A stretch of DNA of 60,161 nucleotides from IMG/VR virus record IMGVR_UViG_3300049596_000421, positions 1-60,161 of that record. One strand, given 5' to 3'. A program made the translations under genes and the position numbers. Below, one piece after another: positions 2-35,323 of this stretch. This DNA is from a virus. Numbering within the stretch: the stretch's first letter is position 1; every line of letters begins with the position of its first letter. The notes beneath the pieces are model-generated. The model had not been told where the DNA came from. It made no database searches and saw only the letters and a program-made list of their open reading frames with translations.

Positions 2-3000
2 AAAAAAGAATTGTTTGATGAGGCTCGTCGTATGACAAAAGATTTTAATATGGATGCGGTTTCATTTAAAATGAAAACATTCTATTATTCTCCGTTAACT
101 GAAGTATTAATTGATTGTTTTGCAACCGTCGCTATTAATAATTTTACTTTAAAAAATATGTTAAGGTTTAATGATTTAAGAGACTACACCTTTAATTGTA
201 CTCATATTGAAGATGGTGGTTATCACTTATCATTTTTTATGTCTCCGGAAGATATTAGAAAGAAGATTTTAAGTTTCTCACATACAGAATATAATTTACC
301 GGAATTTTCAGACTTAAATAAAATTAAACATAGAATGTTTACCGGTGTTGATATTTTTGAAAGACCTGAGTGTCCAACAATTCATTATCATAGTATTTCA
401 TCTGAATTTCCTATTGAATTTTATAGACACGAGATATTTTTTAAAAACACTTTTGACCGACTTTATTTAAAACCTGAAACCAAACGAAGAAGAAATGGTT
501 CGATGCAAATTCCTTTAGAAATTGAAAATCTACAACTTACGGTTAATAATCATCAACCTAAAATTATTGTTGAGATTGGAACCGCAAATGGAGGAACATT
601 GGCAAGATGGTTTGAAGTCCCATCATCAGAAATTGTTATTAGTATTGATTACCCAATTGGTATTCACGGAGGACAAGGATTTGAGGAAAGAACTTATGTT
701 ATTTCAGATGCTTTAGAACAGGCTAATTTAACAAACAAACAATTTTTCGCAATTAATGGAGATTCAAAACACCCTTATTTAGTTGAGAGATTACGAGAAA
801 TTTTAGATGGTAAAAAAGTAGATTTTCTTTTTATTGATGGTGACCATACATATGAAGGTGTTAAGGGAGATTTTGATTTGTACGAACAATTCTTAAATGA
901 AAATTCTATTGTTGGATTTCACGACATTATTGATAGTCAATTCCACTCTGAGAATAATTGTTTTGTTTCAACACTATGGTCAGAACTTAAACAAAAATAT
1001 GAAAGTGTTGAATTTATGTATCCCCAATTATTAGATGGAAATATTTTAGAATATTTTTATAATGCCGCCAATCACAAAGGAGGGTTTGCTGGAATAGGTT
1101 ATATAGAATACTCAAAAAAAAAAGATTTATCCAATAACATCTCATTAGTTGTTCCGATATATAACAATGTTGAAGAAACAATTATTAATGTTCAAACAAC
1201 CTTATCAACATCAAAACATATTGATGAGGTTATCTTATATTCAAATGGAACCGTAGAATCTGAAAATGACAAATTAAGATTGTTTTCAGAAACAAACCCA
1301 ATAATTAAATTGATTATTGTTGAGAAGGCGATTGGTTTTATCAAAGCGGTTAACGAATCATTTAAACTTTGTAAAAACGAATATATGCTTTGTTTAAATA
1401 GTGATGCGTCATTATATGATAATTGGGAGACACAATTACTTGATTTATGTCAAAATGAAAATAATGGGTTAGTTGGGCCTGTATTATGTGATGGGTTTAT
1501 ATTAGGTTGTTGTTTTATTGTTAAAAAATCTATTTTAAATAAAATAGGATTATTAAATGAAGGATATGGTTTAGGTTATTATGATGACAACGATATATCA
1601 AATAGAGTTAGTTCTAACGGATATGAATTAGGTTATAGTCAAATTAAATCCGGATATGATTGGGAGGACCAATTTGTTAATTTCCCAATTAATCATTCTC
1701 AAGGTAAGTCATTTAATTTAGTTGATAGTGATTTAATTACCGGTCAACAACGGACAAATAAATTAAAACTTGAAAAGTTCATTATCACAGAAAAAGTTGT
1801 TGTTTTAAAAAATTTAAGTTATGAAGATGTTAAATCATTATTAAATGAAGATGATGTTTTTATTATTGTCAATAAATCAGGTGATAATTTTGAAAAAATT
1901 AGATATGATGACGATATTGTTAGATTATCTCATATTTTTGAATGTACAAAAGAAATGGTTATTGAAGACATTGTTACTTCAACAACAAAAGGAAAAAAAG
2001 TTGAGTTTAGAACAATTAATAAACCAAAGTTTACTTGGTTAGCAAAATATGATGATTACGCATCGATGGGAATCCTATCTCAAAAGATTCTTGGAAATTT
2101 ACAAATTAGTGACGCTTCTTGTAAAGAAATTATTGGAGTCACCGAAACTAAAAATGAATTAATTCACGATTTAATTAAAAAACCAATCAATCACGATTTG
2201 GGTATTATGTTCGCATACCCTGATATGGTTGGTGAGTTAAAGGAATTTAAAACTAAAGTTATTTATACCGGAGTTGATACCACAGGTGGTTATAGTCGAT
2301 TTGTAGAAAAATCTAAAGAAATTGATTACATCCTAACCCCATCTAACCTATCAAAAGATAGAATGATTAAAATGGGTGTGACAAAACCAATTTTTGTGTT
2401 TCCTCACGGAATAGAAAAAAATGAATTCACATACAAACCAAGAGTAGTGAGTGATAAGTTTAAATTCTTATATGTTGGTGAATGTAGTGATAGAAAAGGT
2501 ATTTTCCACTTATTAAGAGCGTTTACTGAATTATATAAAAATAACCTCAATGTTGAATTACATTTAAAATCAAACACCGCAATGATATTCTATGGAGGTA
2601 ATGAAGTTCAAAAATATGTTGATGAAAATTCAAATATATTTTGGGATATATCCGATACCGGTCACGAAAAAACTTTAGAATTATATAATGAATGTCACGT
2701 CTATATTTACCCATCAAGAGCTGACACTTTTGGTATGACAGTATTAGAAGCGATGGGTTGTGGATTACCGGTCATTTCAACATCAGAACCAGGTTCAACT
2801 GAATTAGTTAGAGGGATGTATATCGATATACCGACTAATGAAGTTCCTGTAGTTGGACATCCTTGGATGACCGGAAATTGGGGTGAGCCAAGTTATCAAA
2901 TGTTAACACTTCTAATGAAGACTATACAGGAAAATTATAATGATTTTTCAAAACCTGAAAAATTAAAAGAAATTTCTGAATATGTTAATAAAAATTATTG

Positions 3001-3649
3001 TTGGGAAAAAATTACCGAAAATTTTGAGAATAATATATTACCTAATTTAGTAAAAGAAGTTAAAATTGTTACACTATTAACGTCATATAAAAGACCTCAC
3101 CATATTAAAAATATAATTAATTGTCTTAAAGATATTAGAGAAAATGGTTATAACAATGACATATATATTGTTGATAATACCAATGATGATTCAAAAGAAG
3201 AAGTTACAAAAGTAATCAATGACAATATTGACAACAAATTCACCTTATATTCCTCAAGTTTTAATTTAGGTCAACGAGGCGCTCTTCTTCAAATGTTAGA
3301 CGATATTAATATTGATGATTATGATTTTATACAATTTACCGACCAAGATAATTTATTATTAGAACCTTTAAGTACGTATTGTAATATTTTAAATGAAAAT
3401 CCGGACATATTTTTTGCAAGTGGGTATATGAGTAAAGAACACGGAGAACTTGGGTGGAGAAACACAAGGTTTGGTAATTTATGTGAAAAACGCTCATTAA
3501 GAGCGGGTCATATGTTTATGAGAGTAAGTGATTTAAAGAATATGTTACCAATTCATTTAGATAGTCAATACGGACAACCACATAATTCATCTTGGTACGC
3601 AGGGTTAGATTGGGAAGTTTCATATTGGAACCCAAAATCTCCGGCATAA
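2..3649 (+). CDS. Multi-domain glycosyltransferase/methyltransferase protein, 5'-truncated
   Basis: The reading frame is open to the window edge, so the true start lies upstream. Residues are numbered here from the TTG at position 11. About residues 1-155 resemble the C-terminal half of GT17 (beta-1,4-GlcNAc-transferase-like): GGYHLSFF, then an SFSHTEYN segment, then a D-L-x-x-I-K-x-R run. Residues 183-310 form a CmcI/cephalosporin-hydroxylase-like SAM methyltransferase (VEIGTANGG, FLFIDGDHTYEGV, GFHDI). Residues 376-570 are a GT2 domain (SLVVPIYNN, LCLNSDAS). Residues about 725-1012 are GT4 (FLYVGECSDRKG; ADTFGMTVLEAMGCGLPV near 904-921). Residues about 1017-1212 are a second GT2-like domain (TLLTSYKRPHH, FTDQDN). 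It heads the modification island and probably acts in the host cytoplasm on a glycan or glycoprotein. Individual family calls are good; the sugar, acceptor and order of reactions are unknown. Confidence 0.85.
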   Translation, partial: KKELFDEARRMTKDFNMDAVSFKMKTFYYSPLTEVLIDCFATVAINNFTLKNMLRFNDLRDYTFNCTHIEDGGYHLSFFMSPEDIRKKILSFSHTEYNLPEFSDLNKIKHRMFTGVDIFERPECPTIHYHSISSEFPIEFYRHEIFFKNTFDRLYLKPETKRRRNGSMQIPLEIENLQLTVNNHQPKIIVEIGTANGGTLARWFEVPSSEIVISIDYPIGIHGGQGFEERTYVISDALEQANLTNKQFFAINGDSKHPYLVERLREILDGKKVDFLFIDGDHTYEGVKGDFDLYEQFLNENSIVGFHDIIDSQFHSENNCFVSTLWSELKQKYESVEFMYPQLLDGNILEYFYNAANHKGGFAGIGYIEYSKKKDLSNNISLVVPIYNNVEETIINVQTTLSTSKHIDEVILYSNGTVESENDKLRLFSETNPIIKLIIVEKAIGFIKAVNESFKLCKNEYMLCLNSDASLYDNWETQLLDLCQNENNGLVGPVLCDGFILGCCFIVKKSILNKIGLLNEGYGLGYYDDNDISNRVSSNGYELGYSQIKSGYDWEDQFVNFPINHSQGKSFNLVDSDLITGQQRTNKLKLEKFIITEKVVVLKNLSYEDVKSLLNEDDVFIIVNKSGDNFEKIRYDDDIVRLSHIFECTKEMVIEDIVTSTTKGKKVEFRTINKPKFTWLAKYDDYASMGILSQKILGNLQISDASCKEIIGVTETKNELIHDLIKKPINHDLGIMFAYPDMVGELKEFKTKVIYTGVDTTGGYSRFVEKSKEIDYILTPSNLSKDRMIKMGVTKPIFVFPHGIEKNEFTYKPRVVSDKFKFLYVGECSDRKGIFHLLRAFTELYKNNLNVELHLKSNTAMIFYGGNEVQKYVDENSNIFWDISDTGHEKTLELYNECHVYIYPSRADTFGMTVLEAMGCGLPVISTSEPGSTELVRGMYIDIPTNEVPVVGHPWMTGNWGEPSYQMLTLLMKTIQENYNDFSKPEKLKEISEYVNKNYCWEKITENFENNILPNLVKEVKIVTLLTSYKRPHHIKNIINCLKDIRENGYNNDIYIVDNTNDDSKEEVTKVINDNIDNKFTLYSSSFNLGQRGALLQMLDDINIDDYDFIQFTDQDNLLLEPLSTYCNILNENPDIFFASGYMSKEHGELGWRNTRFGNLCEKRSLRAGHMFMRVSDLKNMLPIHLDSQYGQPHNSSWYAGLDWEVSYWNPKSPA

Positions 3650-3891: not shown

Positions 3892-6800
3892 ATGCAGGTA
3901 ATTCAAATCACAAGTTTAACGGGGCACTCCCCTTATGATATTACAATTTGTGATGTTACCAACACGTATTGTTATTTAGGTATTTCAGGGGCTACATCGG
4001 CACCTTTAACAATTAATATCCCAACAGAACTTACTAATGTTCAAGAAGTGTTAGTTGTTATTACTGACTCTCTTGGTTGTTCAGAGATTCAATATCATTA
4101 TTGTGATGAACCAAAACCATCACAAACACCAACCACCACACCCACACCAAGTCCGACACCCCCTTTATGTAATTGTATATCATTTGAAAATACTTCAGGG
4201 GTAACATTAAATTATAGTTATACTAATTGTAACGGAGAATTTTTTAATGGAGATATCTATTCAGCAACAACATTATTTGTTTGTGGACATAATCCATCCG
4301 CAGATAGTGGTGTGATAATTAACATATCTTCAGATATTTGTATTGATAATGTGTGTCCGGGACCAACACCAACACCAACTACCACCCCAACACCAACTCC
4401 AACATTATTACCAATTGTTGGTTATTTTGAAGATAGTTGTGACCCACTAAATCAATTTACATTAGCGAATATCCCAATATCATTTAGTCCTTTATCAGGG
4501 GATTACTATATTGAGAGTGACGGGTTTGTTGGTTGTGCAACTTATGTTGTAAGCTCATCGACTAATTATATTTATTCATTTATTTCAATGGGGTCTCAAC
4601 CGAGTATCTACCATTGTCAGAAAGCCAATTTTATTTACCCTTGTCCAAGTAGTACGCCAACACCAACACCAACATCAACACCTTGTGTTGGTTGTAAGAA
4701 TTATATCTTATATGGAGGTTCAGGTAGAGGTGGTAACTCTACATTTCAATATATACCTTGTGGGGAAGTTTCATCAATTAATATTGATATCCCAAGAAGT
4801 GATTTTGGTACTGAGTTTAGTCAAAATATATGTGCCGAATGTAATAGTGTTTATAAATTAACCACTAGTGGGAGTTACGGTATTGTGGGGGCGTGTCCAA
4901 CACCAACACCGACACCAACATATACACCAACACCAACACCAACAACACCGGTTAAATATATCTTATTCCAAGTTCAATCTTGTTGTTCTAAAAAAATTAT
5001 AAAATACATAATGTTACCATCAACATTTTTACCTGGTACGGCAATTGTTAATTCATATGGTGAATGTTTGGAAATAATTGATAAATCTCGGGGAGATGCG
5101 TGGGTAACTGATTATTGGAATCATTTAACAACATATGTGGATTGTGAGTTATGTATTAAATATCAAACTTGTGACCCAATCACACCACCACCATTTATAT
5201 CCGTTTGGACGACAACATCTCCTAACGAAACTATTGTATTACCATATGAAACTTCAGGGTTTTATTATGGGACTATTGATTGGGGTGATGGAACTATTAC
5301 TACTAATGATTATGTTAATAGGTCACACATTTATGTAACACCAGGAACTTATACGATAACAATAACCGGAACATTAATTGGTTGGTGTTTTGGGTTATAT
5401 CCCTCAAGTGCATTAAACATTGTCGAGGTATTACAATGGGGTTGTTTGCAATTAGGAAATTCAGGTTTTAATTTTGTCAATTGTCAAAATTTAACATTAA
5501 ATAATGTTAGTGATGTTTTAAATTTATCAGAAACAAATAGTTTATACTCAACATTCTCCGATTGTAATAGTTTAACTACAATAAATAATGTTAATTCTTG
5601 GGATACATCAACGATAACCAATATGGTTGACACTTTTATTTATTGTTATAATTTTAATGATGACATCAGTAATTGGGATGTTAGTAATGTTACCGATTTT
5701 GGAGGTATGTTTAATAACGCCTGGTCATTTAATCAACCAATTGGTATTTGGGACACTTCTAGTGCTCTTAGTATGGTTAATATGTTCTTTTATTCATCAA
5801 ATTTTAATCAAGATATTGGAAATTGGGATGTGTCAAATGTGACTGATATGAACGATATGTTTAATAGTGGTGTTCAATTTAATAATGGAGGTTCCCCATC
5901 TATTAATAGTTGGTTAACATCTAATGTTACAAATATGTCGGGTATGTTTCTCTCAACCCCATTTAATCAACCAATTGATAGTTGGGATACATCAAGTGTT
6001 ACTTCTACGTCATTTATGTTTTTTAATACAACCCAATTTAATCAACCATTAAATTCTTGGGATGTAAGTAATGTTATAAATATGTCGTATATGTTTAACC
6101 AAGCAATATCCTTTAATCAACCTTTAAATTCTTGGAACGTCGGTAATGTTACTACTATGTCTAGTATGTTTAACGGAGCAAATGTATTTAATCAAGACAT
6201 TGGTAATTGGGATGTTAGTAGTGTAACTGATATGGTAGCGATGTTTAGGGATGCGTCATTATTTAATCAAGATATTGGTAGTTGGGATGTTAGTAGTGTC
6301 ACTAGTATGGGTTTAATGTTTCAAAGATTTAATACCTTAGTTAGTTCATTTAATAATGGTGGGTCCCCATCTATAAGTGCGTGGACACCATCATCAGTGA
6401 CAAGTATGTTTGGTATGTTTAACGGAGCAAATGTATTTAATCAAGACATTGGTAATTGGGATGTTAGTAATGTTATAACTTTTGGAGGTATGTTTTTAAC
6501 CGGTGGGATTTTTAATAATGGAGGTTCTCCGTCAATTAGTGGATGGACAATTAACACTTCAAGTAGTGTTAGTATGTATATTATGTTTGGTTTTGGAGCG
6601 TTTAATCAACCTATAGGTTCGTGGAATGTTTCAAAGGTTACTACTATGACTGAAATGTTTAGGGGAAATTTCTCGTTTAATCAAGATATAGGTGGATGGG
6701 ATGTTAGTAGTGTTACCGATTTTACTAATTTTATGCAGGGTAAAACATTTTCGGATTATTCAACAACAAATTTAGACGCAATATACAATGGGTGGAGTTC

Positions 6801-6930
6801 ATTACCTTCACTACAACCATTTATTAATATTAATTTTAACACAATTAAATATACCGCAGCTAGTTCAGCAGGGAAATCAATACTTCAAGGAGCACCAAAT
6901 AATTGGACAATTACCGATGGTGGTATATAA
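3892..6930 (+). CDS. Thr-Pro-linked Cys-bead adhesin with PKD-like and DUF285 (BspA-like) repeats
   Basis: This 1012-residue protein looks like a virion fibre/adhesin. An N-terminal Ig-like segment (1-72) precedes four Cys-rich beads at about 93-155, 174-251, 265-335 and 354-428, separated by Thr-Pro linkers (about 74-91, 156-173, 252-264, 336-353). A PKD-like domain follows (about 434-497; [10 protein letters not shown] and [13 protein letters not shown]). Residues about 505-1000 are tandem DUF285 repeats with the signature [10 protein letters not shown]-x-x-MF and FNQ(P/D)I, as in BspA-like and Mycoplasma surface proteins. No signal peptide or membrane segment is evident, which fits a virion protein rather than a secreted one. 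The DUF285 arrays suggest binding to a host surface ligand. Three of the bead types recur in the proteins at 15877 and 19591. Family calls are solid; the exact position on the virion is inferred. Confidence 0.85.
6164..6469 (+). repeat. 57-nt direct repeat pair within the DUF285 coding array
   Basis: The 57 nt at 6164-6220 are repeated exactly at 6413-6469, 249 bp apart. Each copy encodes the segment around [17 protein letters not shown]. Neighbouring DUF285 units match only at protein level, so this exact copy suggests a recent duplication or gene conversion within the array. Confidence 0.85.
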
Positions 6931-6942
6931 TTACTATTTATC

Positions 6943-6984: not shown

Positions 6985-8232
6985 ATGAAAATATTTGTCC
7001 AAATTGCGTCCTATCGTGACCCTCAACTTATCCCAACAATTAAAAATATGTTGGAGAATGCAAAAAAACCTAAAAATTTAGTAATCGGAATTTGTCGTCA
7101 ATACCATCCTGAGGATGGATTTGATGATTTATCTGAATATGCGAAAGATAAACGATTCAGAGTTGTTGATGTTCTATATACCGAATCTAAAGGTGTATGT
7201 TGGGCAAGAAATCAAGTACAACAATTATATAAAGGTGAGGAATATACCCTTCAAATCGATTCTCATATGAGATTTGAGAAGGATTGGGATGACACTCTAA
7301 TCAAAATGATTAAACAACTTCAAAAGAAAGGGTTTAAGAAACCTTTGTTAACAGGATACGTATCTTCATTTGACCCGGACAATGACCCGGCAGGTAGAGT
7401 TAAAGAGCCTTGGAGAATGGCTTTTGATAGATTCATTCCTGAAGGGGCGGTATTCTTTTTACCTGAAACAATCCCGGGATGGGAAACACTTACCGAACCG
7501 GTGACTTCACGATTTTATTCTGCCCATATGGCGTTTACCTTAGGACAATTTAGTCTTGAGGTTCAACACGACCCTGAATTTTATTTTCACGGAGAAGAAA
7601 TATCAATTGCTGTTAGAGCATTCACTCACGGATATGATTTATTCCACCCACATAAAACTGTAATTTGGCACGAATATACTCGTAAGGGTAGAACCAAACA
7701 ATGGGATGACGATAAAGAGTGGGGTAAGAAAAATGAATTATCACATAAGAAAAATCGTCAATTATTTGGTATGGACGGTGAAGAAGTTACTTTGGATTTT
7801 AGTTATTATGGTTTTGGAACCGAAAGAACTTTAAAAGATTATGAAATATATTCAGGACTTAAATTTTCAAATAGAGCTGTTCAACAACATACATTAGATA
7901 AAAAATATCCACCAAACCCTCAAATTTTTGAGACTGAGGAAGAATGGTTGGCAAGTTATGCAAGTATTTTCAAACATTGTATTGACATTGGATTTTCTCA
8001 AGTTCCTGAAAAAGATTATGAATTTTGGGTTGTTGCTTTCCACGATGAAAAAGACGAAACACTTTTTAGAAAAGATGCGGACATCAACGAGATTAATAAT
8101 ATGTTAAGAGACCCTGATGGGTATTGTAAAGTTTGGAGAGATTTCCAAACAACTCATAAACCAAAATACTGGGTTGTTTGGCCGTTTAGTAAGTCAAAAG
8201 GTTGGTGTGATAGGATAACGGGTAACTTATAA
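6985..8232 (+). CDS. GT60-like polypeptide GlcNAc-transferase (GlcNAc family)
   Basis: The N-terminus (IFVQIASYRDPQLIPTI) and the segment QIDSHMRFEKDWD match the GlcNAc/GT60 glycosyltransferase family, with the SH-x-R-F motif in place of a simple DXD. Further along are FHGEEISIAVRAFTHGYD and HEYTRKGRTKQWDDD, which fit the second half of the family domain. Characterised GT60 enzymes transfer GlcNAc from UDP-GlcNAc to hydroxyproline (Skp1) or to Thr of mucin-type polypeptides. At 415 residues it is full length, with about 80 extra C-terminal residues. It lies directly after a Thr-Pro-rich adhesin gene and 2 nt before the next gene. Family assignment is fairly strong; use of the phage fibres as acceptor is inference. 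Confidence 0.75.
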   Translation: MKIFVQIASYRDPQLIPTIKNMLENAKKPKNLVIGICRQYHPEDGFDDLSEYAKDKRFRVVDVLYTESKGVCWARNQVQQLYKGEEYTLQIDSHMRFEKDWDDTLIKMIKQLQKKGFKKPLLTGYVSSFDPDNDPAGRVKEPWRMAFDRFIPEGAVFFLPETIPGWETLTEPVTSRFYSAHMAFTLGQFSLEVQHDPEFYFHGEEISIAVRAFTHGYDLFHPHKTVIWHEYTRKGRTKQWDDDKEWGKKNELSHKKNRQLFGMDGEEVTLDFSYYGFGTERTLKDYEIYSGLKFSNRAVQQHTLDKKYPPNPQIFETEEEWLASYASIFKHCIDIGFSQVPEKDYEFWVVAFHDEKDETLFRKDADINEINNMLRDPDGYCKVWRDFQTTHKPKYWVVWPFSKSKGWCDRITGNL

Positions 8233-8234
8233 AA

Positions 8235-9083
8235 ATGGTTAAAATTTACGATGAATACGATTCATATTTAGAGGGAGGACATTTTTCATCACCAAGAAAA
8301 AATTTGGGGAATAAGTTGTTTATATATTCCGCTTGTAGAATAATTAGTGAGATATTAGGGTATGAATTAATATCTCCCGAAAATGCGTTAGTAAGAAGAG
8401 AAGACACCGAAAATGGGCGATATAAAGAAATTATATTCCCGTTTAAAGGGGTTAAAGGAAACATTGTGGATAACCCAATTAAAGTTATTCAAGATGGTGA
8501 CATCATACATTTAGGTAGTATTGAAAATTTAATACAATCTTACCCAAATCACGGATTTATAAATCAATCATATTTTTCAAAATATGATTACATTAAACCA
8601 TATAAAACTAAAGTTAAAGAATACTTTAAAAGTATTGTTAAAGATAAAAGGGTTGGTAATGATTTAGTGATTATGTTAAGGAGTAGTAATCACGACGGGA
8701 GTTTTGTTTTACCTGACAGTTATTACCTTAATATCATATCTCAAGAAACTTTTGATAATCTATATATTTCATTTGACCATATAAACAAACATCAATCGTT
8801 AATTAGTAAATTAGAAAAATATAACCCTAAATTAATTGATGGTGATATACTTAACGTTTTTTCAGAAATTACATCATTTAACACAATAATTGCGGCTCAA
8901 GGAACATTTTCTTTTTGGGCTTGTTTTCTATCTAACGCTAATAAAATATATTGGCCAATTACTAATGATGGTCCAAATTCCGGCAAAAACTCAGATAATC
9001 CGGTATTCAACTCATACGTTAATTTAACGGTTGATGATGAATCAAGATATGAATTAATAAACGTAACAGATATATACAAATGA
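8235..9083 (+). CDS. Putative fucosyltransferase-like glycosyltransferase
   Basis: A 282-residue protein with features reminiscent of alpha-1,2-fucosyltransferase-type GT-B enzymes: an N-terminal NLGNKLFIYSACRIISEILGY segment, then VIMLRSSNHDGS where the family has its H-x-R-x-x-D peptide, and a C-terminal segment TIIAAQGTFSFWACFLSN like the SSFSWWAAWL region. The match is by pattern only, and the fucosyl donor is not established. It starts 2 nt after the GT60-like gene and overlaps the next gene by 4 nt (ATGA), so it is translationally coupled in the glycosylation operon. Confidence 0.5.
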   Translation: MVKIYDEYDSYLEGGHFSSPRKNLGNKLFIYSACRIISEILGYELISPENALVRREDTENGRYKEIIFPFKGVKGNIVDNPIKVIQDGDIIHLGSIENLIQSYPNHGFINQSYFSKYDYIKPYKTKVKEYFKSIVKDKRVGNDLVIMLRSSNHDGSFVLPDSYYLNIISQETFDNLYISFDHINKHQSLISKLEKYNPKLIDGDILNVFSEITSFNTIIAAQGTFSFWACFLSNANKIYWPITNDGPNSGKNSDNPVFNSYVNLTVDDESRYELINVTDIYK

Positions 9084-9760
9084 TAAAAACAATAGCTTTT
9101 AGTCTTTTTGGTACCGAAATGAAGTATTACGTAGGTGCTGAAAAAAATGTTATAATTAATAAAGAATTATTACCAGATTGGACAACCGTAATTTATTACC
9201 ATCCTCAAAACATAATTGAAGGTTATGTCGAAAAACTAGCGTCATTAGGAGCAACAATGGTGGATGTGTCGAATATTAAATTAGGCAATAAAGAATCGAT
9301 TCATTTCCCATATTTTTGGAGATTCCTTTCGTTTTTACAAGACAGTCCCTCAATAGTTAGAGATTTAGATAGTAGAATTTCTGATAGAGAAGTGAAATAT
9401 ATTAGAAAATGGGAAGAAACAAATGAAGATTATTTTATAATAAGAGACCATCCGTGGCACGCACCCGTACCAAGTGGGTTATTTGGTATTAAGAAAAAAA
9501 TAGAAGAGTTTGAACAACACTTTATTGAATTTGTTAATATTGATGAATTACGTTGGGGTTCCGACCAAGAAATTTTGAGAATTTATATGGAAAATATTAG
9601 TGATGATAATGTGTTTTATTGTGGTTACGATATTCAAACCAATTATATACCTAGAGACGATAAAACCTTTTTTATTGGAATGCAACTAAATGAAAATGAT
9701 GAACCAACAGTCCCAAGTGGAGTGCAGTGTTTAAATTACCTAAACGAAATAAATTTATAA
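9080..9760 (+). CDS. Putative glycosyltransferase-like protein
   Basis: A 226-residue protein with an N-terminal Rossmann-like beginning (TIAFSLFGTEMKYY) and a central segment SPSIVRDLDSRISDREV followed by IIRDHPWHAPVPSGLFG. DLDSR has the placement of a DXD metal/nucleotide-sugar motif after a helix, as in small sugar transferases of capsule loci. It overlaps the preceding gene by 4 nt and is 1 nt from the next. I would call it a glycosyltransferase from context and motif; the family is not certain. Confidence 0.5.
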   Translation: MIKTIAFSLFGTEMKYYVGAEKNVIINKELLPDWTTVIYYHPQNIIEGYVEKLASLGATMVDVSNIKLGNKESIHFPYFWRFLSFLQDSPSIVRDLDSRISDREVKYIRKWEETNEDYFIIRDHPWHAPVPSGLFGIKKKIEEFEQHFIEFVNIDELRWGSDQEILRIYMENISDDNVFYCGYDIQTNYIPRDDKTFFIGMQLNENDEPTVPSGVQCLNYLNEINL

Positions 9761-9761
9761 A

Positions 9762-10523
9762 ATGAAGTATTGTTTTACAACTTTGGCAGTCGGTGAGCCA
9801 TATGAAGAATTAACCGCAAAGTTATACACAAGTTTAAGAGATAAAACTCAAAACTGTGAATTTTTTATAACAACAAATAATCCTAACTTTCCTGATTTAG
9901 GTGAAAAAATCCACATTAATAGAGAGTCATTACAAAGTCTACACGATTCAAGAGGTGGGTTTAGTTTTCATTTAAATTATAAGTGTTTATCAATCAAACA
10001 CGTTTTATCTAATGAAAAACAAATGTTAGCGTTAGACCCTGAATTTAAAAAATTTGATTATGTAATCTTTACTGATGGTGATTGGATTATGGAAAAAGAT
10101 TTTTCTGAAGAGAAAATTTTAAATATGTTAAATTATATGGAAACTGAAGGATTTGATTTTGTATTTGAAAGACCTGCAAGTATTGGTGACGGTAGACGAG
10201 ACCCTGAAAATAGTTTCTATAGAGATAAAATTTACGATTATGATATATTAGAATACGATAAGTGGGATGAAGCTCACGTTGTTAATGAACAATGTTTGGT
10301 ATTTAAAAATAATTATAAATTTAGATTTTTTGCCCAAAGATGGGAACAATTTTTATGGTATTCAATCCATAACGATATTCGAAATTACCCCGACGGTTTC
10401 GAGATTGGAGTATCAGCTTTAGAAGCGGGGATGAAATGGCACTACAATGGAGTGTTTAATCACTTTTTACAAGGGTGTTTTGGATTTTATACTAAACTTG
10501 GTGATTATCACATTAGATTTTAA
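9762..10523 (+). CDS. Putative GT-A type glycosyltransferase
   Basis: A 253-residue protein with an N-terminal FTTLAVGEPYEEL and the segment YVIFTDGDWIMEKDF, where DGD resembles the GT-A DXD motif after a hydrophobic beta strand. A later EQCLVFKNNYKFRFF and a C-terminal WHYNGVFNHFLQGCFGF resemble the acceptor half of GT8/GT6-like folds. No membrane helix is seen. It lies inside the tightly packed island. The glycosyltransferase fold is likely; donor and acceptor are unknown. Confidence 0.55.
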   Translation: MKYCFTTLAVGEPYEELTAKLYTSLRDKTQNCEFFITTNNPNFPDLGEKIHINRESLQSLHDSRGGFSFHLNYKCLSIKHVLSNEKQMLALDPEFKKFDYVIFTDGDWIMEKDFSEEKILNMLNYMETEGFDFVFERPASIGDGRRDPENSFYRDKIYDYDILEYDKWDEAHVVNEQCLVFKNNYKFRFFAQRWEQFLWYSIHNDIRNYPDGFEIGVSALEAGMKWHYNGVFNHFLQGCFGFYTKLGDYHIRF

Positions 10524-11074: not shown

Positions 11075-11998
11075 ATGAAATCAAAAATAGTTACAGCATA
11101 TTGGATGGATGTTGAGGGGTATCCATTTCAAGGTGTACTTCCAATTAGAAAAATAAGATATCAAGGTTCTTTAATTTCTCATTGTACTGGTAGTGGACTA
11201 CCGGTTATTTGTTACACTCATAGTAAAAATTATGACGAACTTAACAATATTAAAGTGAAGTATAATTTAACTAATTTAGAGTTGAAAATATTAGAACTAT
11301 CTGATGTAAAATATCACAATGAAATTGAAAGGGTTAGAAATAATAATTTCGATACTGATTTGGATGGTAGAGGTCCTGAAATAATGTGGGGAAAATTTGA
11401 TGTGTTAGAAAGAGAACTTGATGGATTTGATAGAGTTTATTGGGTTGATGTTGGTTTACAACACCCTGGCATATTCCCTTGGATGTACTCTAAAGTTCAC
11501 AATGAGAATTCTGAAAATTTAGGTGTACCAACAAATTGGTGGGCTCATTTAGATGTGTTTAATTTTTCAAAATTAATTGATAGTGATGTGTATGATAAAT
11601 TAAATAACATCTGTGAAAATAAAATAATGTTTGTTTGTTCATATGGACCTCAAATAAGTTATCCGTTTTTAAATTATGGAATATTAGACAAATCGTTTGA
11701 ATCTCCATACCCGGTTGGTGGTATGGTTGGTGGTGATGTTCAAATATTAAAAAAATACATAAATTTATTTTGGGAATTCACTGAGAAAATTTTAGAAAAA
11801 AACATACTTTGCACAGAAGAAGTAATTATGAAACCGTCATATGATTTAATTGGTGACGATGAAAAGGTTACACTTATGTTTAACGCGTTTGCATCTGGAG
11901 AACACGATGATTATCACTACACTATGTGGAATAAAGAAAAAAATACAGCAAAACCTTTCTATATGATGTGGCACGATATAAAAAATTTTAACATATGA
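11075..11998 (+). CDS. HtrL-like/glycosyltransferase-like protein
   Basis: A 307-residue protein starting SKIVTAYWMDVEGYPFQG, with a central ELDGFDRVYWVDVGLQHPGIFPWMY. That segment parallels YMFWVDAGLTNTIHPGYF in the protein at 14167, which I assign to the HtrL/YibB family, so the two are probably distant paralogues. VDVG may play the role of a DXD-like motif. It overlaps the next gene by 4 nt (ATGA). The function is likely glycan modification, but the biochemical activity of this family is poorly defined. Confidence 0.45.
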   Translation: MKSKIVTAYWMDVEGYPFQGVLPIRKIRYQGSLISHCTGSGLPVICYTHSKNYDELNNIKVKYNLTNLELKILELSDVKYHNEIERVRNNNFDTDLDGRGPEIMWGKFDVLERELDGFDRVYWVDVGLQHPGIFPWMYSKVHNENSENLGVPTNWWAHLDVFNFSKLIDSDVYDKLNNICENKIMFVCSYGPQISYPFLNYGILDKSFESPYPVGGMVGGDVQILKKYINLFWEFTEKILEKNILCTEEVIMKPSYDLIGDDEKVTLMFNAFASGEHDDYHYTMWNKEKNTAKPFYMMWHDIKNFNI

Positions 11999-12870
11999 AA
12001 TCAGTCATAACCGCGTCATTTAATAGTGGGTTAGGAGATATGTATACAAATCTTTATCAAATTTATTATTTACAAGAAGAATTAAAAAAAATTGGATATG
12101 AGGTTAAAACAATCATTGATTTAGGGCGTAACCCTTATAAAATGTATAGTGAAGACAGAAACATATTTAAAAGAATTTTTAAATTAGATTTGTTAGATGA
12201 GTTGGAAATTGTGATAGGTAATCTTGAAACAGTTAATGATGATTTAAGTCAAGATTTAATTAAGGTATATAACTATGAACATATTCATACAGTATTTGTT
12301 GATGAAAAAAGTGACGAATTTGATAACATTAAACACGTAAAACATTCTTGGTATTATAGAGATGATTTACCAAAAATTAACCTATTTAGTGATGAGGTAA
12401 CAAAATATTGTGAATTAAAATCTAAAGAGATAGGTGATAATTATATTGGATTACATTATAGACCATTTTCATCAGATAATGAGGATAATATTGAATCTGA
12501 TTTAGAAAATTACAAATTAGAAATAAATAATATTTTAGAAGAAAACCACGATAAAATTGTGTTTATTTCGACAAATAAATTTTTAGTAAAGGAGTATTTA
12601 AAAAATAGTAACTACACTAACTACTATATCAATGAGTTTGTTTTTCCTAACGTACACGACAGTATTAGGGAATTAAAAATTAACGATGACGATTTATTTG
12701 AAATTTTAAAAGAAACATTATGTGATATGTATTTACTGTCAAAATGTGAGAAAATATATAGGATTGCAAATTGGTTTTCCGCTTTTTTATCTTTCTCTTG
12801 TTTATATAATCAAACCAATGTTTCTAATACGTTAAGATATTACCCTGAATACCCAATATTACCACTTTAA
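11995..12870 (+). CDS. Hypothetical protein of the glycosylation island, GT-B-like
   Basis: A 291-residue protein starting SVITASFNSGLGDMYTNLYQIYYL, which resembles the first Rossmann half of GT-B transferases and heptosyl/fucosyl-type enzymes (G-L-G-D-M). The C-terminal DMYLLSKCEKIYRIANWFS resembles the conserved D-x-x-x-L-S-x-C-x-x-x-I segment of fucosyltransferase-like proteins. In between, IGLHYRPFSSDNED could be the H-x-R-x-x-D-like loop. It is coupled to the preceding gene by a 4-nt overlap. I regard a sugar transferase as likely but cannot name the family with certainty. Confidence 0.45.
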   Translation: MKSVITASFNSGLGDMYTNLYQIYYLQEELKKIGYEVKTIIDLGRNPYKMYSEDRNIFKRIFKLDLLDELEIVIGNLETVNDDLSQDLIKVYNYEHIHTVFVDEKSDEFDNIKHVKHSWYYRDDLPKINLFSDEVTKYCELKSKEIGDNYIGLHYRPFSSDNEDNIESDLENYKLEINNILEENHDKIVFISTNKFLVKEYLKNSNYTNYYINEFVFPNVHDSIRELKINDDDLFEILKETLCDMYLLSKCEKIYRIANWFSAFLSFSCLYNQTNVSNTLRYYPEYPILPL

Positions 12871-12904: not shown

Positions 12905-13483
12905 ATGGATTTTTACTCACAAATTGGACAAGATAGACTTGTCTTAAAATATTTAAAAAATAAAATGAACGGCACCTTTGTTGATGTTGGTTGCGGATTT
13001 CCTAAACTTATCAACAATACTTATGTCTTGGAAAATAACTTTAATTGGGGTGGGATATCAATTGATATTCATATGTTCACTGAAGAAGATGGTATGGTAT
13101 GGGATGACTGTAGAAACACAAAATTAATTTTAGCAGATGCTTTAACGATTAATTATTCGTCGTTATTTAAAGAAAATAACTTACCAATAAATATAGATTA
13201 TTTAAGTATGGATTTAGAGCCACCAGATTTGTCATTGGAATGTTTGTTTAAAATACCATTTGATGAATATACTTTTAATATTATCACATTTGAGGTTGAT
13301 AACAATAGAGAGGGTGATACACGAAGAATTTCAGAAAGTAGAGAATTTTTAAAATCAAAAGGTTATACATTAATAGGTTCAATTTGTAGTGGACAAGATG
13401 ACGTATATTTACATAATTCGTTAATTGAATTGACTAACGAATTTACATTTTTTGATGAGGATATCATATGGACAAAACAATAA
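12905..13483 (+). CDS. FkbM-family methyltransferase
   Basis: A 192-residue protein with the FkbM (Methyltransf_21) signature: the start YSQIGQDRLVLKYLKNK, motif I GTFVDVGCGFPKLINNTY, then WGGISIDIHM, IDYLSMDLEPPDLSLE and FNIITFEVDNN. FkbM enzymes are O-methyltransferases often found in glycan and polyketide tailoring loci. The length is near the minimum for the family. The 34-nt gap before it is A/T-rich without an RBS. Likely role: O-methylation of a sugar made by the island. Confidence 0.75.
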   Translation: MDFYSQIGQDRLVLKYLKNKMNGTFVDVGCGFPKLINNTYVLENNFNWGGISIDIHMFTEEDGMVWDDCRNTKLILADALTINYSSLFKENNLPINIDYLSMDLEPPDLSLECLFKIPFDEYTFNIITFEVDNNREGDTRRISESREFLKSKGYTLIGSICSGQDDVYLHNSLIELTNEFTFFDEDIIWTKQ

Positions 13484-13532: not shown

Positions 13533-14165
13533 ATGAATTACGAAGATAAAATAACTAAAAAATCCGATTTAAAATGCAATGATAGTGTTTCGGTATATAA
13601 CGGCTCTTGGGGAGCTCAACAAAATCCAAATGTTTTTGAAACGTTTCATTATTTTTTAAATGATATTAAACCTAAACAAATTTTAGAAATAGGTACATCA
13701 ATAGGTGGGTTTACGTCATTCTTAAATTATACCTGTAAAAAACTTGGTATTAATTCTCACATTATCTCTTACGACATTAATGAACTTTCTTGGTATGAAG
13801 ATATGAAATCGGAAGGTGTTGATGTTAGAGTGGAAAATGTATTTACTCCTAACTATGACGAAGTTAAACAAGAGGTTATAGATTTTATCAATAATGATGG
13901 AGTAACTTTAGTTCTTTGTGATGGTGGTGATAAAATAGGTGAGTTTAATTTATTATCAAATTACATTAAACCGGGTGACTTTATAATGGCTCACGATTAT
14001 TCCCAAGACTCGGAAACATTTGAATCAAATGTTAATAATAAAATATGGAATTGGCACGAAATTTCCGATAAGGACATCGAAGATGCTTGTGTTAAAAATA
14101 ATTTAATAAGTTATAAAAAAGACGTTTTTGATAACGTTGTTTGGGTTTGTAAAACAAAAATATAA
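13533..14165 (+). CDS. CmcI/cephalosporin-hydroxylase-like SAM methyltransferase
   Basis: A 210-residue protein with motif I KQILEIGTSIGGFTSFL (residues about 49-65), a second strand HIISYDINELSWY, VTLVLCDGGDKIGEF and KPGDFIMAHDYSQD. This is the layout of CmcI-like methyltransferases, the same fold as residues 183-310 of the first gene (ID-G-D-H replaced here by CDGGD). It lies 49 nt after the FkbM gene behind a TATTTATA element and only 1 nt before the next ATG. Sugar O-methylation is the most likely role. Confidence 0.7.
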   Translation: MNYEDKITKKSDLKCNDSVSVYNGSWGAQQNPNVFETFHYFLNDIKPKQILEIGTSIGGFTSFLNYTCKKLGINSHIISYDINELSWYEDMKSEGVDVRVENVFTPNYDEVKQEVIDFINNDGVTLVLCDGGDKIGEFNLLSNYIKPGDFIMAHDYSQDSETFESNVNNKIWNWHEISDKDIEDACVKNNLISYKKDVFDNVVWVCKTKI

Positions 14166-14166
14166 T

Positions 14167-15840
14167 ATGTCAGTAACTATAGTAACCGGTTTATGGGATA
14201 TAGGTCGAGGAGACCTTCAAGAAGGATGGTCGAGGTCATTCCAACATTATTTAGATAAATTTCAACAACTATTACAAGTTGATGTTAATATGATAATTTT
14301 TGGTGACGAAGAATTAGAAAAATTTGTATTAAATAATAGACGTAGTGAAAATACTCAATTTGTTCGTAGAGATTTATCTTGGTTTAAAAACAATGATTTT
14401 TTCAATAAAATACAACAAATAAGAACTAACCCTGATTGGTATAATCAAGTTGGATGGTTAAGTGAATCGACACAAGCCAAATTAGAGATGTACAACCCTT
14501 TGGTTATGTCCAAAGTATTTCTTTTGCACGATGCGAAAATTTTAGATAAGTTTGATTCAGAATATATGTTTTGGGTTGATGCTGGATTAACCAATACAAT
14601 CCATCCAGGATATTTTACGCACGACAAAGTATTAGACAAACTACCCCAATTAGTTAAGAATTTTCATTTTGTTTGTTTCCCTTATGAAACAAATAGTGAA
14701 ATCCACGGATTTAAATATTCTGAGTTATGTGAATTGGCAGGGAAACCCGTTAATATGGTTGCAAGAGCCGGATTCTTTGGGGGTAAAAAAGATGTTATAT
14801 CAGAAATTAATAGTATATATTATGGTTTAATGAATGATACATTATCTCAAGGATTGATGGGGACAGAAGAGTCATTATTTACAATTATGACGTACAAATA
14901 CCCAGATTTAATAACTTATTCTGAAATAGAAGGTAATGGTTTAATGGGTAAATTTTTTGAAGACTTAAAAGATATGACAGTTGAGATTAAATCTGAAGTG
15001 TCTGATGACGTTGTCACAAATAATTTAGACGATTCAAAAGTTGGACTTTATGTTATTACATTTAACTCACCAAAACAATTGGAGGTTTTAATAAAATCAA
15101 TGTTAGATTATGATGCTGACTTTATTAATAAACCAAAAAAATTCTTATTAGATAACTCAACGGATTTATCTACAACACCACAATATATTGAATTATGTGA
15201 AGAGTATGGATTTGAACATATTAAGAAAGATAATATTGGTATTGTTGGGGGTAGAGTATTTGTTGCCGAACATTTTGAAGAAACTGATTTAGATTTTTGT
15301 TGGTGGTTTGAGGATGATATGGCATTTCACCCTAAAAAAGATGAGGTTTGTAGAAATGGATTCCCAAGATTTGTTAACAATTTATATCAAAAATCATTAG
15401 ACATTGTAAAAAAAGAAAATTTTGATTTTTTAAAATTAAATTTTAGTGAATTTTTTGGTGATAATAGTGTTCAATGGAGTTGGTATAATGTTCCTCAGGA
15501 TTTTAGACAATCTCATTGGCCCAACAATAAAAAATTACCGGTTCAGGGGTTAGACCCAAATTCCCCAAAAACAAAATTTAACGAAATTAATATTCATAAA
15601 GGATTACCTTATGTGTCAGGAGAAATTTACTTATGTAATTGGCCAATTGTGTTAACAAAATCCGGAAATTATAAATGTTATTTAGAAACTAAATGGGCTC
15701 ACCCATTTGAACAAACTCTGATGTCTTACGCTTATCAAGAAACGGTGAAAGGTAACATTAATCCGGGGTTATTATTATTAACACCAACGGAACATAACAG
15801 ATTTGAACACTATGACGGTTCTTTAAGAAAAGAAAGCTAA
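14167..15840 (+). CDS. HtrL/YibB-like plus GT2-like fusion protein
   Basis: I choose the ATG at 14167, directly after the preceding stop, rather than an in-frame ATG at 14128 that would overlap the upstream gene by 38 nt. The result is 557 residues. Residues about 1-270 match the HtrL/YibB family (SVTIVTGLWDIGRG, YNPLVMSKVFLLHDA, YMFWVDAGLTNTIHPGYF, MGTEESLFTIMTY). Residues about 290-557 form a GT2-like domain (VGLYVITFNSPKQLE, FLLDNSTD, NIGIVGGRVFVAEHF, WWFEDDMAFHP). EDDM is the expected metal site. HtrL proteins occur in LPS and glycan loci and are glycosyltransferase-like in fold. The fusion suggests two consecutive transfers on one product. Confidence 0.7.
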   Translation: MSVTIVTGLWDIGRGDLQEGWSRSFQHYLDKFQQLLQVDVNMIIFGDEELEKFVLNNRRSENTQFVRRDLSWFKNNDFFNKIQQIRTNPDWYNQVGWLSESTQAKLEMYNPLVMSKVFLLHDAKILDKFDSEYMFWVDAGLTNTIHPGYFTHDKVLDKLPQLVKNFHFVCFPYETNSEIHGFKYSELCELAGKPVNMVARAGFFGGKKDVISEINSIYYGLMNDTLSQGLMGTEESLFTIMTYKYPDLITYSEIEGNGLMGKFFEDLKDMTVEIKSEVSDDVVTNNLDDSKVGLYVITFNSPKQLEVLIKSMLDYDADFINKPKKFLLDNSTDLSTTPQYIELCEEYGFEHIKKDNIGIVGGRVFVAEHFEETDLDFCWWFEDDMAFHPKKDEVCRNGFPRFVNNLYQKSLDIVKKENFDFLKLNFSEFFGDNSVQWSWYNVPQDFRQSHWPNNKKLPVQGLDPNSPKTKFNEINIHKGLPYVSGEIYLCNWPIVLTKSGNYKCYLETKWAHPFEQTLMSYAYQETVKGNINPGLLLLTPTEHNRFEHYDGSLRKES

Positions 15841-19590: not shown

Positions 19591-21537
19591 ATGGGAACAT
19601 TTTTAGAGATAACAACAACAAATTATAACGGACAATTAGCCGAAATAACCTTTTTCCCTTGTTCGGGGGGGACTATTTTTATTGGTCAAGTCACTTTACC
19701 ATATTATTATGATAATCCTTATTATTATGGTACATATCAGATTTATATACCTAATTACAATGAATATTGTGATTTAGTAATTCCTTGTCCAACACCGTCA
19801 CCAACATCCACACCAACACTTACACCAACTCGTAAAATAAGAAATTTACCGTATAGAGTATTATCTTGTTGTAGTCGTCTTTCGGGTGTAATAATATTAC
19901 CATCAACTTTTGATATTGGTATGACAATATTAACTACCTCTAAATTATGTATGACAATTATTGATTTTGCACCAAAAGGTAGTATACCAACATTTACTTG
20001 GTCAGGTATTTCATATGATGGTTGTGAAAAATGTTTAGAAGATTATCCTTGTAATCCTAACCCAACTCCGACTCCAACCCCAACTAGTTGTAAAGGTTGT
20101 CAAAGTTATACCTTAGATGGTGGTTTAGGTAGACGTGGATACACTGAATTTAGTTACATCCCTTGTGGTGAACGAACACCTGTCACCATTTTTATAGATA
20201 GAACGGATACAATACCTGGAAATACACTTACAGTTTGTGCGGAATGTTACTATGGTATTGTAATATTATCCGGTCCGGGTAGTTATGTGATATCGGGAGA
20301 ATGTGTTAAACCAACACCAACTCCAACACCAACTAAAACTCCAACCCAAACACCGTTAACAAATTTTTGTCTTATAATAAGTCAAGAATGTGGAACGGTT
20401 TTCCCTATTGAAGAAAAAGAGTTAATAAATGGTAAAAAATCTTGGACAACCACAATAAATGGTAATCCTGCTTTAATATATTGGGATAACATACAACTTT
20501 GTTGGGTGGTTAAAAATACGGATACTGATGAAGAATGTTCTAAGTTATTTATTGATTCTGAATACCCTGTTGGGGATTACACTCAATGGGTTTCGACAAT
20601 ACCACCTACAGAAGGTTGTTCGTGTTTATCAACAGACACTTATTTTAATATACAATTAATTAATTGTCCGACACCAACACCTACACCAACAAATACTGTT
20701 ACACCAACAGTAACTCCAACAATGACATCCACACCAACACCAACAATGACACAAACTCCAACAAATACGGTGACATCGACTAGCACACCAACAAATACGG
20801 TAACATCGACTAGTACACCAACACCAACAAATACTGAAACACCTACTCAAACACCAACAAACACCTCAACGACAACACCAACACCAAGTGTAACATCTTC
20901 ACCATTACCACCAATTATTGGATATTTTCAAGATTGTTGTGATGAAACTATTAAGTTTAAAGTGGGTTCATTGGTTCAATCATTAAATATTGGAGAATCA
21001 TACTATGTTGTGACAGATGGGTATTCAGGGTGTACAATAGCTATTAATGAAACACTTGTTTCGGTTCAATACTTGGAGACATTAGTTTTAAGTCAGGAAG
21101 GTAATTGTGAAACTTGTAACGTTAAATATTCAAAAGTGTGTCCGACACCAACTCCAACCCCAACTCCAACAAATACAGAAACTCCGACACCAACTCCAAC
21201 ACCAACTGAAACCCCAACACAAACACCAACTAATACGGAAACCCCAACACAAACCCCAACACCTACTATAACAGAAACCCCAACTCAAACACCAACACCA
21301 ACAAATACAGAAACTCCGACTCAAACACCGACGAATACGTTAACATCAACACCGACACCTACTATGACACCCACAACAAGTCCTGAAGTGTGTATTGATT
21401 GTAATGTATCAGGGTATACTTATATTATATCTGATTCAGTGATTTATCCTACACCAATGCCAACAAGAACTTCAACACCGACACCAACTAAAACACCGGA
21501 TAATACAATATACACAATATGGGTACATATTGAATAA
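19591..21537 (+). CDS. Thr-Pro-linked Cys-bead fibre protein
   Basis: A 648-residue protein made almost wholly of beads and linkers. An N-terminal domain spans 1-66. Cys beads lie at about 87-154 (VLSCC type), 167-238 (CKGC type), 258-360 (FCLIISQECG type) and 441-518 (IIGYFQDCC type). Thr-Pro linkers lie at about 66-80, 156-166, 240-256, 360-440 and 518-598; the last two are 80 residues each and also carry Asn, Glu and Ser. Each bead has a counterpart in the proteins at 3892 or 15877. The protein ends soon after the last linker, so it may be mainly a stalk or spacer. It starts 12 nt after the preceding stop. Virion fibre role is inferred from composition and neighbours. Confidence 0.75.
   Translation: MGTFLEITTTNYNGQLAEITFFPCSGGTIFIGQVTLPYYYDNPYYYGTYQIYIPNYNEYCDLVIPCPTPSPTSTPTLTPTRKIRNLPYRVLSCCSRLSGVIILPSTFDIGMTILTTSKLCMTIIDFAPKGSIPTFTWSGISYDGCEKCLEDYPCNPNPTPTPTPTSCKGCQSYTLDGGLGRRGYTEFSYIPCGERTPVTIFIDRTDTIPGNTLTVCAECYYGIVILSGPGSYVISGECVKPTPTPTPTKTPTQTPLTNFCLIISQECGTVFPIEEKELINGKKSWTTTINGNPALIYWDNIQLCWVVKNTDTDEECSKLFIDSEYPVGDYTQWVSTIPPTEGCSCLSTDTYFNIQLINCPTPTPTPTNTVTPTVTPTMTSTPTPTMTQTPTNTVTSTSTPTNTVTSTSTPTPTNTETPTQTPTNTSTTTPTPSVTSSPLPPIIGYFQDCCDETIKFKVGSLVQSLNIGESYYVVTDGYSGCTIAINETLVSVQYLETLVLSQEGNCETCNVKYSKVCPTPTPTPTPTNTETPTPTPTPTETPTQTPTNTETPTQTPTPTITETPTQTPTPTNTETPTQTPTNTLTSTPTPTMTPTTSPEVCIDCNVSGYTYIISDSVIYPTPMPTRTSTPTPTKTPDNTIYTIWVHIE
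20668..21384 (+). repeat. Low-complexity Thr-Pro coding repeats (two long linkers)
   Basis: Two blocks, about 20668-20910 and 21142-21384, consist of degenerate ACACC(A/G)AC(A/T)-type triplet pairs encoding alternating Thr and Pro with Asn, Glu, Gln and Ser inserts. Similar shorter blocks lie at about 4357-4410, 4645-4683, 4897-4950, 16915-16980 and 17632-17751. Extensive short identity among blocks offers homology for recombination between fibre genes. Confidence 0.8.
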
Positions 21538-35271: not shown

Positions 35272-35323
35272 TATAAATAGTTGCTACGAAGTAAAGTATT
35301 TTGATTTTTTTTTAATATTTATA
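35272..35323. promoter_or_regulatory. Divergent TATTTATA elements and candidate operator
   Basis: Minus-strand TATTTATA at 35272-35279 faces the ribbon-helix-helix gene, and plus-strand TATTTATA at 35316-35323 precedes the sheath gene (ATG 35354) with the leader AAACAAGACAAACTA. Between them an imperfect palindrome TTGCTACGAAGTAA (35281-35294) is a possible operator. Confidence 0.45.

Follow-up and report, generated by a model that had tools for sequence, protein, structure and literature searches.

What does a glycosyltransferase encoded beside the adhesin genes of a large virus act on: host surface sugars, viral DNA or a protein of the virus itself? The question is raised by the open reading frame (ORF) at 6985-8232 of the virus record IMGVR_UViG_3300049596_000421, whose 60,161 bases are referred to here as the window. 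This window carries a contractile-tail sheath gene (PF17482) and encodes a family B DNA polymerase, to which the nearest relatives among deposited phages are only ~23% identical. A first-pass annotation had described the ORF as a GT60-like polypeptide N-acetylglucosamine (GlcNAc) transferase lying directly after a threonine-proline (Thr-Pro)-rich adhesin, and had taken this position as the most specific clue that the glycans are attached to protein. Our analysis favours an answer of the same kind. Going by gene order and a predicted fold, the enzyme most likely starts O-glycans on the Thr-Pro linkers of virion adhesins, a reading that is favoured rather than secured; that its acceptor is some protein can be said with good confidence.

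The gene runs on the plus strand from an ATG at 6985 to a stop at 8232, beginning 54 bases past the end of the adhesin ORF (3892-6930), and encodes 415 amino acids (aa) that form a GT-A domain (about residues 1-300) and a C-terminal beta domain (about residues 325-415). It is a clear member of the GT60 family. The GlcNAc profile PF11397 matches with an E-value of 4.4e-70 (237.3 bits against a cut-off of 21), was recovered again by a genome-level search, and is the sole Pfam family found at E <= 0.01, while PHROG 24687, labelled 'glycosyltransferase', matches at E 2.9e-170. Across an alignment of 113 phage and bacterial homologues, 29 to 82% identical to the window protein, the invariant residues are D92, H94, E205, R211, G216-Y217-D218 and H229. 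Two of these belong to the motif D92-S93-H94 (codons at 7258-7266, plus strand), the DxH that replaces DxD in both GT60 and GT27, and H229 (7669-7671, plus strand) is, by analogy, a candidate for the C-terminal His that acts as a metal ligand in GT27 (PMC7185993). The two families are described as close and as sharing a Ser/Thr O-glycosylation mode (PMC7185993), and their described members glycosylate Thr/Ser of polypeptides (PMC9472816, PMC7185993), in line with what had been claimed for known GT60 enzymes. Profile search and inspection of catalytic residues, both suggested by the first-pass annotation, thus return GT60 as the best profile with D92, H94 and H229 kept.

The predicted structure points in the same direction. 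An AlphaFold2 model of the protein (mean predicted local distance difference test score, pLDDT, 95.5; predicted template modelling score 0.88) has a GT-A fold near GT27. In a Foldseek search of the PDB with this model, polypeptide N-acetylgalactosamine (GalNAc) transferases occupy ranks 1-42, and in VIA-align they occupy rows 1-29 (Z 22.3-19.4 over 262-281 residues, root-mean-square deviation 3.4-3.8, identity 12-15%), followed by a Leptospira glycosyltransferase (Z 17.9), chondroitin polymerase (17.3), GlfT2 (17.0) and TarP (16.1). This top ranking makes the predicted fold one of the peptide-transferase type, a shared fold being by itself no proof of acceptor. The likeness to GT27 is structural only: Pfam gives PF11397 and not GT27, a phmmer search of PDB sequences returned no GalNAc-transferase at E <= 1, and the solved structures matched by sequence at this threshold were T7 RNA polymerase and unrelated fragments, none of them sensible. 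GT27 enzymes carry a C-terminal ricin-type lectin domain. When the C-terminal domain of the window protein was modelled alone (pLDDT 90), its best Foldseek match had an E-value of 0.088 and was not significant, an absence that shows nothing.

These comparisons bear on the possibility that the surrounding gene cluster serves, during infection, to make or modify a polysaccharide or lipopolysaccharide of the host surface, for instance as a superinfection block, and that the GT60 enzyme acts on that glycan. The island does hold many sugar-transfer genes and resembles polysaccharide clusters, and some bacterial PF11397 homologues, in Edaphobacter, lie by eye amid apparently ordinary sugar-metabolism genes. 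The best matches, however, are GT60 by profile and polypeptide GalNAc-transferases by structure, and neither is a glycolipid- or polysaccharide-specific family; the peptide transferases score Z 19.4-22.3, whereas chondroitin polymerase and TarP do not exceed 17.3. The model is also one compact protein, with no membrane helix seen by eye in its sequence or secondary structure, and the gene is linked to Thr-Pro proteins, as described below. An acceptor among host glycans is accordingly considered improbable.

Three proteins of the window, all encoded on the plus strand, are proposed as acceptors. The adhesin directly upstream of the GT60 gene (3892-6930, 1012 aa) has bead modules at its N-terminus, with four Thr-Pro linkers connecting them, and then DUF285 repeats (PF03382, five stretches). 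The linkers span 4111-4968 (4111-4176, 4342-4425, 4633-4698 and 4876-4968) and contain 28 Thr and 20 Thr-Pro. Further along the window lie a protein of 1233 aa with six linkers and a Fib_succ_major domain (PF09603; 15877-19578) and one of 648 aa with seven linkers, which hold 97 Thr (19591-21537). Combined, the three proteins have 17 linkers with 197 Thr and 105 Thr-Pro pairs.

Is this neighbourhood peculiar to the window? In viral contigs, a scan at the protein level brought up 417 relatives of the enzyme; the best 80 of these (77-96% identical), taken with flanks of up to 10 kb on either side, were collapsed by DNA similarity into 50 non-redundant clusters. Counting an ORF as Thr-Pro-rich if it has at least 10 TP or PT pairs within 40 residues, the ORF directly upstream of GT60 qualifies in 43 of the 50 clusters and the ORF directly downstream in none. 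Shuffling of genes within loci (20,000 rounds) put the upstream count at 8.0 on average and at 18 at most, and the count barely depends on the threshold (43 with 8 pairs, 40 with 12). As a placebo anchor, the DNA polymerase gene of related phages has a Thr-Pro neighbour in 6/72 cases upstream and 0/80 downstream. Of the seven misses, one (L021) counts as such because a 61-aa antisense ORF separates GT60 from an ORF that is itself Thr-Pro-rich. The upstream proteins vary in length (98 to 3,315 aa) as well as in their N- and C-terminal modules. The pairing of GT60 with a Thr-Pro adhesin is thus the rule and exceeds chance. Since a mucin-initiator-like enzyme lies almost always beside a Thr-Pro adhesin, large aquatic phages probably give their own adhesins a coat of sugars. 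A separate observation concerns another of the misses (L060, 2-2407), where Gly-Thr-Ser-Gly repeats replace the Thr-Pro linkers upstream of GT60, possibly forming another Thr-rich acceptor.

The link extends to distant lineages. An alignment-based scan gave at least 592 viral relatives, of which the best 80 form 62 clusters; 45 of the 62 remain once loci with less than 4 kb on either side are dropped, and 24 of these 45 are less than 60% identical to the window protein. Among these 24, a Thr-Pro ORF lies within 10 kb of GT60 in 18 and directly upstream in nine (shuffled mean 3.1, maximum 8, 5,000 rounds), while the count directly downstream (3/24) equals the shuffled mean of 3.1. For all 45 clusters, 14 have the Thr-Pro ORF directly upstream, compared with a shuffled mean of 5.3, and no enrichment is seen directly downstream (3, mean 4.9). 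Enrichment is mild in the six-gene neighbourhood of three genes on each side (25/45, mean 20.0, maximum 27). At the level of whole records, a pattern of four Thr-Pro codon pairs occurs in 26 of 41 (the 24 distant records plus 17 from phages resembling the isolated jumbo phage XacN1), and its reversed form gives a single match.

The association was also approached from the opposite side. A scan for five Thr-Pro codon pairs yielded at least 120 loci in 119 records, and PF11397 is present in 17 of the 119 among the matches listed; its absence from short records is uninformative. As a control, five Gly-Ser pairs were scanned for, and 47 of the 120 listed loci were used, namely those in records of at least 20 kb. 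Among the matches listed, records of at least 20 kb have PF11397 in 16/81 cases for Thr-Pro and in 0/47 for Gly-Ser (Fisher P 0.0005), and those reaching 100 kb in 7/9 and 0/4, respectively; likewise, none of 72 listed Gly-Ser loci of at least 8 kb has a Thr-Pro ORF. When relatives were chosen by their polymerase (43 records of at least 30 kb among 80 fetched), PF11397 was found in 32/43 and the Thr-Pro pattern in 28/43, rising to 11/11 and 10/11 in records of at least 100 kb. The Thr-Pro link is therefore strengthened by conserved synteny, by distant lineages and by the Gly-Ser control. Together with the structural matches, these results support the earlier suggestion that a GT60 gene beside a Thr-Pro adhesin is a clue to protein-linked glycans, and the 54-base gap to an ORF with four such linkers upholds the placement on which that suggestion was based.

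Independent support is offered by an isolated phage. GT60 was found in only three of 50,697 deposited phage records: XacN1, CM1 and RAS14. XacN1 ORF334 is the GT60 protein, 48% identical to that of the window. In the same island, ORF325 (3,313 aa) has C-terminal Thr-Pro linkers, hits a virion structural family in PHROGs at E 5.6e-73 and adjoins the baseplate wedge gene ORF324. An ORF325-family protein with a Thr-Pro linker (WAX21643) is likewise found in the GT60 island of RAS14. A phage glycosyltransferase is thus linked to genes of virion proteins, through the Thr-Pro proteins upstream in 43/50 clusters, whose place in the virion is presumed, and through ORF325 in the XacN1 island. Proteomics of XacN1 reported at least two glycoproteins, and the phage-encoded glycosyltransferases ORF328 and ORF334 were suggested as their possible makers (PMC5852040, which names PXD008065 as the deposited data).

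XacN1 also bears on whether the enzyme could instead glycosylate modified bases of the phage DNA. DNA glycosylation is frequent in T4-like large phages, a carbamoyltransferase gene adjoins GT60 in XacN1, and thymidylate-synthase-family genes occur in 13 of 21 GT60-bearing records, a count that also fits ordinary thymidylate synthesis. The fold, however, is of the polypeptide-transferase type, and the linked genes are those of adhesins and sugar enzymes. Glycosylated cytosines should moreover block digestion by BssHII, NaeI and SpeI. These three enzymes were used to map XacN1 DNA (PMC5852040), and a DNA acceptor is regarded as very unlikely.

Several observations weigh against O-glycosylation of the linkers as such. 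After linker masking, 46 of 51 upstream proteins of the close clade (window included) are still linked by BLAST, so that their adjacency to GT60 could be inherited. No Thr-Pro ORF lies within 10 kb of GT60 in six of the 24 distant lineages (in two of the six, L480 and L482, the upstream neighbour has looser Thr/Pro-rich linkers), and XacN1-like phages have a Thr-Pro gene in the locus in 10/19 cases, directly upstream in only 2/19. In the reverse direction, 102 of 119 Thr-Pro records lack PF11397 among the matches listed, many of them being fragments. Across 120 Burkholderiaceae genomes, (TP)6 occurs in 37 and PF11397 in four, with both in one; 36 of the 37 genomes thus lack PF11397 and three of the four lack the pattern, and bacterial Thr-Pro tracts therefore do not need GT60. 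For XacN1, the available text of PMC5852040 gives no identity for the glycosylated proteins, their residues or the enzyme, and reports no removal of a gene.

These points lend themselves to a reading in which GT60 glycosylates a virion or other phage protein elsewhere than on the linkers, the linkers serve as spacers, and the gene order reflects an inherited adhesin-and-sugar island. Such an island would explain why the Thr-Pro proteins beside GT60 share modules, why most listed Thr-Pro records are without PF11397, and why Burkholderiaceae commonly have Thr-Pro tracts but no GT60. It fits less well with the recurrence of the link at less than 60% GT60 identity and with other gene orders (18/24 lineages; 26/41 records against one reversed match), or with nearest structures that are polypeptide Thr/Ser transferases. 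This explanation is judged rather unlikely, and priming of O-glycans on the linkers themselves is preferred.

If the enzyme starts a glycan, what would extend it? Downstream of GT60, the loci share an order in which one to nine variable genes are followed by a conserved HtrL/YibB-type gene and often by another Thr-Pro protein, the whole being preceded by the Thr-Pro adhesin. In the window, the YibB-type gene (14164-15840, plus strand) encodes 558 aa with a C-terminal half of its own (PF09612, E 1.2e-19); the family is of unknown function in Pfam. Among 42 relatives, the clade representatives whose loci reach at least 8 kb downstream, GT60 is present in 42, the YibB-type gene in 38 and every other island gene in 0 to 11. 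A full YibB-type ORF occurs in 42 of the 50 representatives, separated from GT60 by one to nine genes; the 148 ORFs lying between the two in these loci fall into 47 families, 26 of them confined to a single locus, and a Thr-Pro-rich ORF comes directly after the YibB-type gene in 19/42 (expected 3.8). Elsewhere, the YibB-type gene is found in 16/19 XacN1-like, 34/80 distant viral and 14/80 bacterial loci. In the 50,697 deposited phage records, full-length matches occur in XacN1 (42% identical to the window protein), CM1 and RAS14 only, and three Synechococcus phages match part of it.

The variable cassette of the window comprises eight plus-strand genes, each found in at most 11 of the 42 relatives. 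The first (8235-9083; 3/42) is a probable glycosyltransferase with a weak match to PHROG 2644, and is followed by two genes of no assigned family (9080-9760 and 9762-10523; 5/42 each) and an S-adenosylmethionine-dependent methyltransferase gene (PF13489; 10535-11071; 3/42). Next come genes at 11075-11998 (11/42, and 8/19 XacN1-like loci), 11995-12870 (1/42) and 12905-13483 (0/42), the last without a convincing profile match and presumably, judging by eye, an FkbM-type methyltransferase. The series ends with a methyltransferase gene (PF01728; 13533-14165; 8/42). At the other end of the island, a multi-domain methyltransferase/GT2/GT4 protein identified by profile matches is cut by the window start (2-3649, plus strand; 3/42).

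On the computed family, catalytic motif, predicted fold, Thr-Pro linkage and constant-variable-constant gene order, the following course can be proposed. In the infected cell, a soluble GT-A enzyme of the GT60 family would act as a polypeptide O-glycosyltransferase, transferring a first sugar, probably an alpha-linked N-acetylhexosamine from a uridine diphosphate (UDP) sugar, to Thr and perhaps also Ser in the Thr-Pro linkers. Transfer would take place before or during virion assembly, with the adhesins presumed to be part of the virion. The genes between GT60 and the YibB-type gene would then extend and decorate this sugar in an order that can only be conjectured, and the YibB-type enzyme may perform a step common to all the phages. 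The constant-variable-constant order is what would be expected if GT60 primes, the cassette varies and the YibB-type enzyme performs this common step. As the cassette genes are swapped between phages, the glycan displayed would differ from phage to phage while the kind of linker stays the same. Such glycans may stiffen the linkers and protect them from proteases, or alter what the particle shows to its hosts.

Other features of the window touch on expression and on neighbouring genes. The best promoter-like site of the region (6904-6931, plus strand; 11/12 consensus matches) lies ~54 bases ahead of the GT60 start, and the number of sigma-70-like sites in the region, this one included, is not above chance. 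The motif TATAAATA, which we take to be the T4 late promoter core, has 27 copies in the window compared with 15.8 by chance, a number reached in 1/100 shuffles. A late-promoter link of GT60 to the tail genes was considered and rejected: the sole plus-strand copy in 1-29,900 sits within the upstream adhesin gene (6075-6082), and co-expression with the tail genes is therefore not supported. Farther along the plus strand, copies at 35272 and 35324 precede the sheath gene. Between the Thr-Pro proteins and the polymerase lies a protease-like protein (21556-22815; PHROG 20754), with similar genes in 3/42 relatives, which might process the adhesins or be packaged with them. It is followed by an 877-aa protein (22841-25474) whose C-terminal phosphatidylethanolamine-binding-protein-like domain (PF01161) looks unusual for a phage adhesin.

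Bacterial homologues raise the question of whether the enzyme serves other contractile particles. A bacterial genome scan confirmed 188 relatives, of which 80 were kept; by tblastn, type VI secretion genes (TssF, TssA) are present in 18 of the 80 loci and in three extra regions. The 18 loci are mostly from Burkholderiales, with one each from Neisseriaceae and Morganella. One type VI locus (L568) has TssF, ImpA_N, fimbrial, RHS, PAAR and VgrG-type domains among the GT60 neighbours by Pfam. In 11 of 12 loci with a whole ORF, the VgrG near GT60 has Pro-rich repeats with Thr or Ser, which are pure Thr-Pro in two. Within Burkholderiales type VI clusters (loci among L549-L593, L608, L649-L651), GT60 typically has a fimbrial-type adhesin gene on one side and an RHS gene on the other. 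In two Sphingomonas metagenome-assembled genomes (L563 4387-8004, L576 4388-7996), GT60 lies close to a protein of 1,200 aa that combines Pro/Thr-rich linkers with an Rv2525c-type glycoside hydrolase-like domain and that, by eye, is possibly a contractile-injection baseplate protein. With GT60 beside type VI adhesins and VgrG and beside the Sphingomonas linker protein, the spikes and adhesins of injection machines may be glycosylated as well. The bacterial part is a lead rather than a result. The wider idea that GT60 initiates a general mucin-type O-glycosylation of contractile-tail particles, with a hypervariable cassette writing the phage-specific glycan and type VI spikes or adhesins perhaps included, is put forward as tentative.

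Why would this matter? Phage genomes abound in glycosyltransferases, and the usual guess for their targets is DNA or the sugars of the host surface. The GT60 locus provides a concrete alternative in peptide O-glycosylation: adhesin linkers modified by a priming enzyme that stays constant and a glycan cassette that can be exchanged, which the three isolated phages allow to be tested. If this is correct, many large aquatic phages would be covered in variable glycans of their own making, which would matter for receptor binding, for the stability of the particle and for how hosts or grazers recognise it. The known range of a polypeptide-transferase family so far described in protists would then include phages and, perhaps, bacterial injection machines. 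In one library, no paper combines GT60 with phages and glycosyltransferases, and searches of titles and abstracts there on phage glycosylation of Thr-Pro sequences, VgrG O-glycosylation, polypeptide GlcNAc-transferases in bacteria and phages, and proline-rich tail linkers of jumbo phages returned nothing matching this system. GT60 enzymes and phage-made virion glycans are each already known; their combination here was not found in the literature searched.

Set beside known systems, the locus combines several familiar traits. In Dictyostelium, Skp1 Gnt1 is a GT60 UDP-GlcNAc polypeptide alpha-GlcNAc-transferase. CAZy GT60 also holds the TcOGNT enzymes of Trypanosoma cruzi, with which the phage enzyme shares PF11397 and DxH, making Thr-rich acceptors plausible; TcOGNT1 makes GlcNAc-alpha-Thr in mucins (PMC9472816). 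For retaining transfer of GlcNAc to Thr or hydroxyproline of polypeptides, the reaction that marks the family, the pointer in the case of the phage enzyme is its gene neighbourhood. Unlike these GT60 enzymes, the phage enzyme is presumably cytosolic and is encoded beside adhesin genes and a sugar cassette. The animal mucin-type GalNAc-transferases of GT27 are its best structural matches and share its clade and DxH motif (PMC7185993), whereas it is only 12-15% identical to them and no lectin domain was recognised in it. O-glycosylated Ser/Pro/Thr-rich linkers that resist proteolysis also join the domains of bacterial cellulases and scaffoldins (PMC6794216); those, however, belong to cellular secreted enzymes, and their transferase is not named in the available text of that source. 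Mycobacteriophages likewise carry phage-encoded glycans on their own virion proteins, at the C-termini of capsid and tail-tube proteins (Freeman et al. 2023, cited in PMC12619734), in contrast to the GT60-type enzyme and the adhesin Thr-Pro linkers proposed here. Finally, the jumbo phage XacN1 shares with the window the GT60 enzyme (48%), the YibB-type protein (42%) and a Thr-Pro protein of a virion family, in a phage with at least two reported glycoproteins (PMC5852040).

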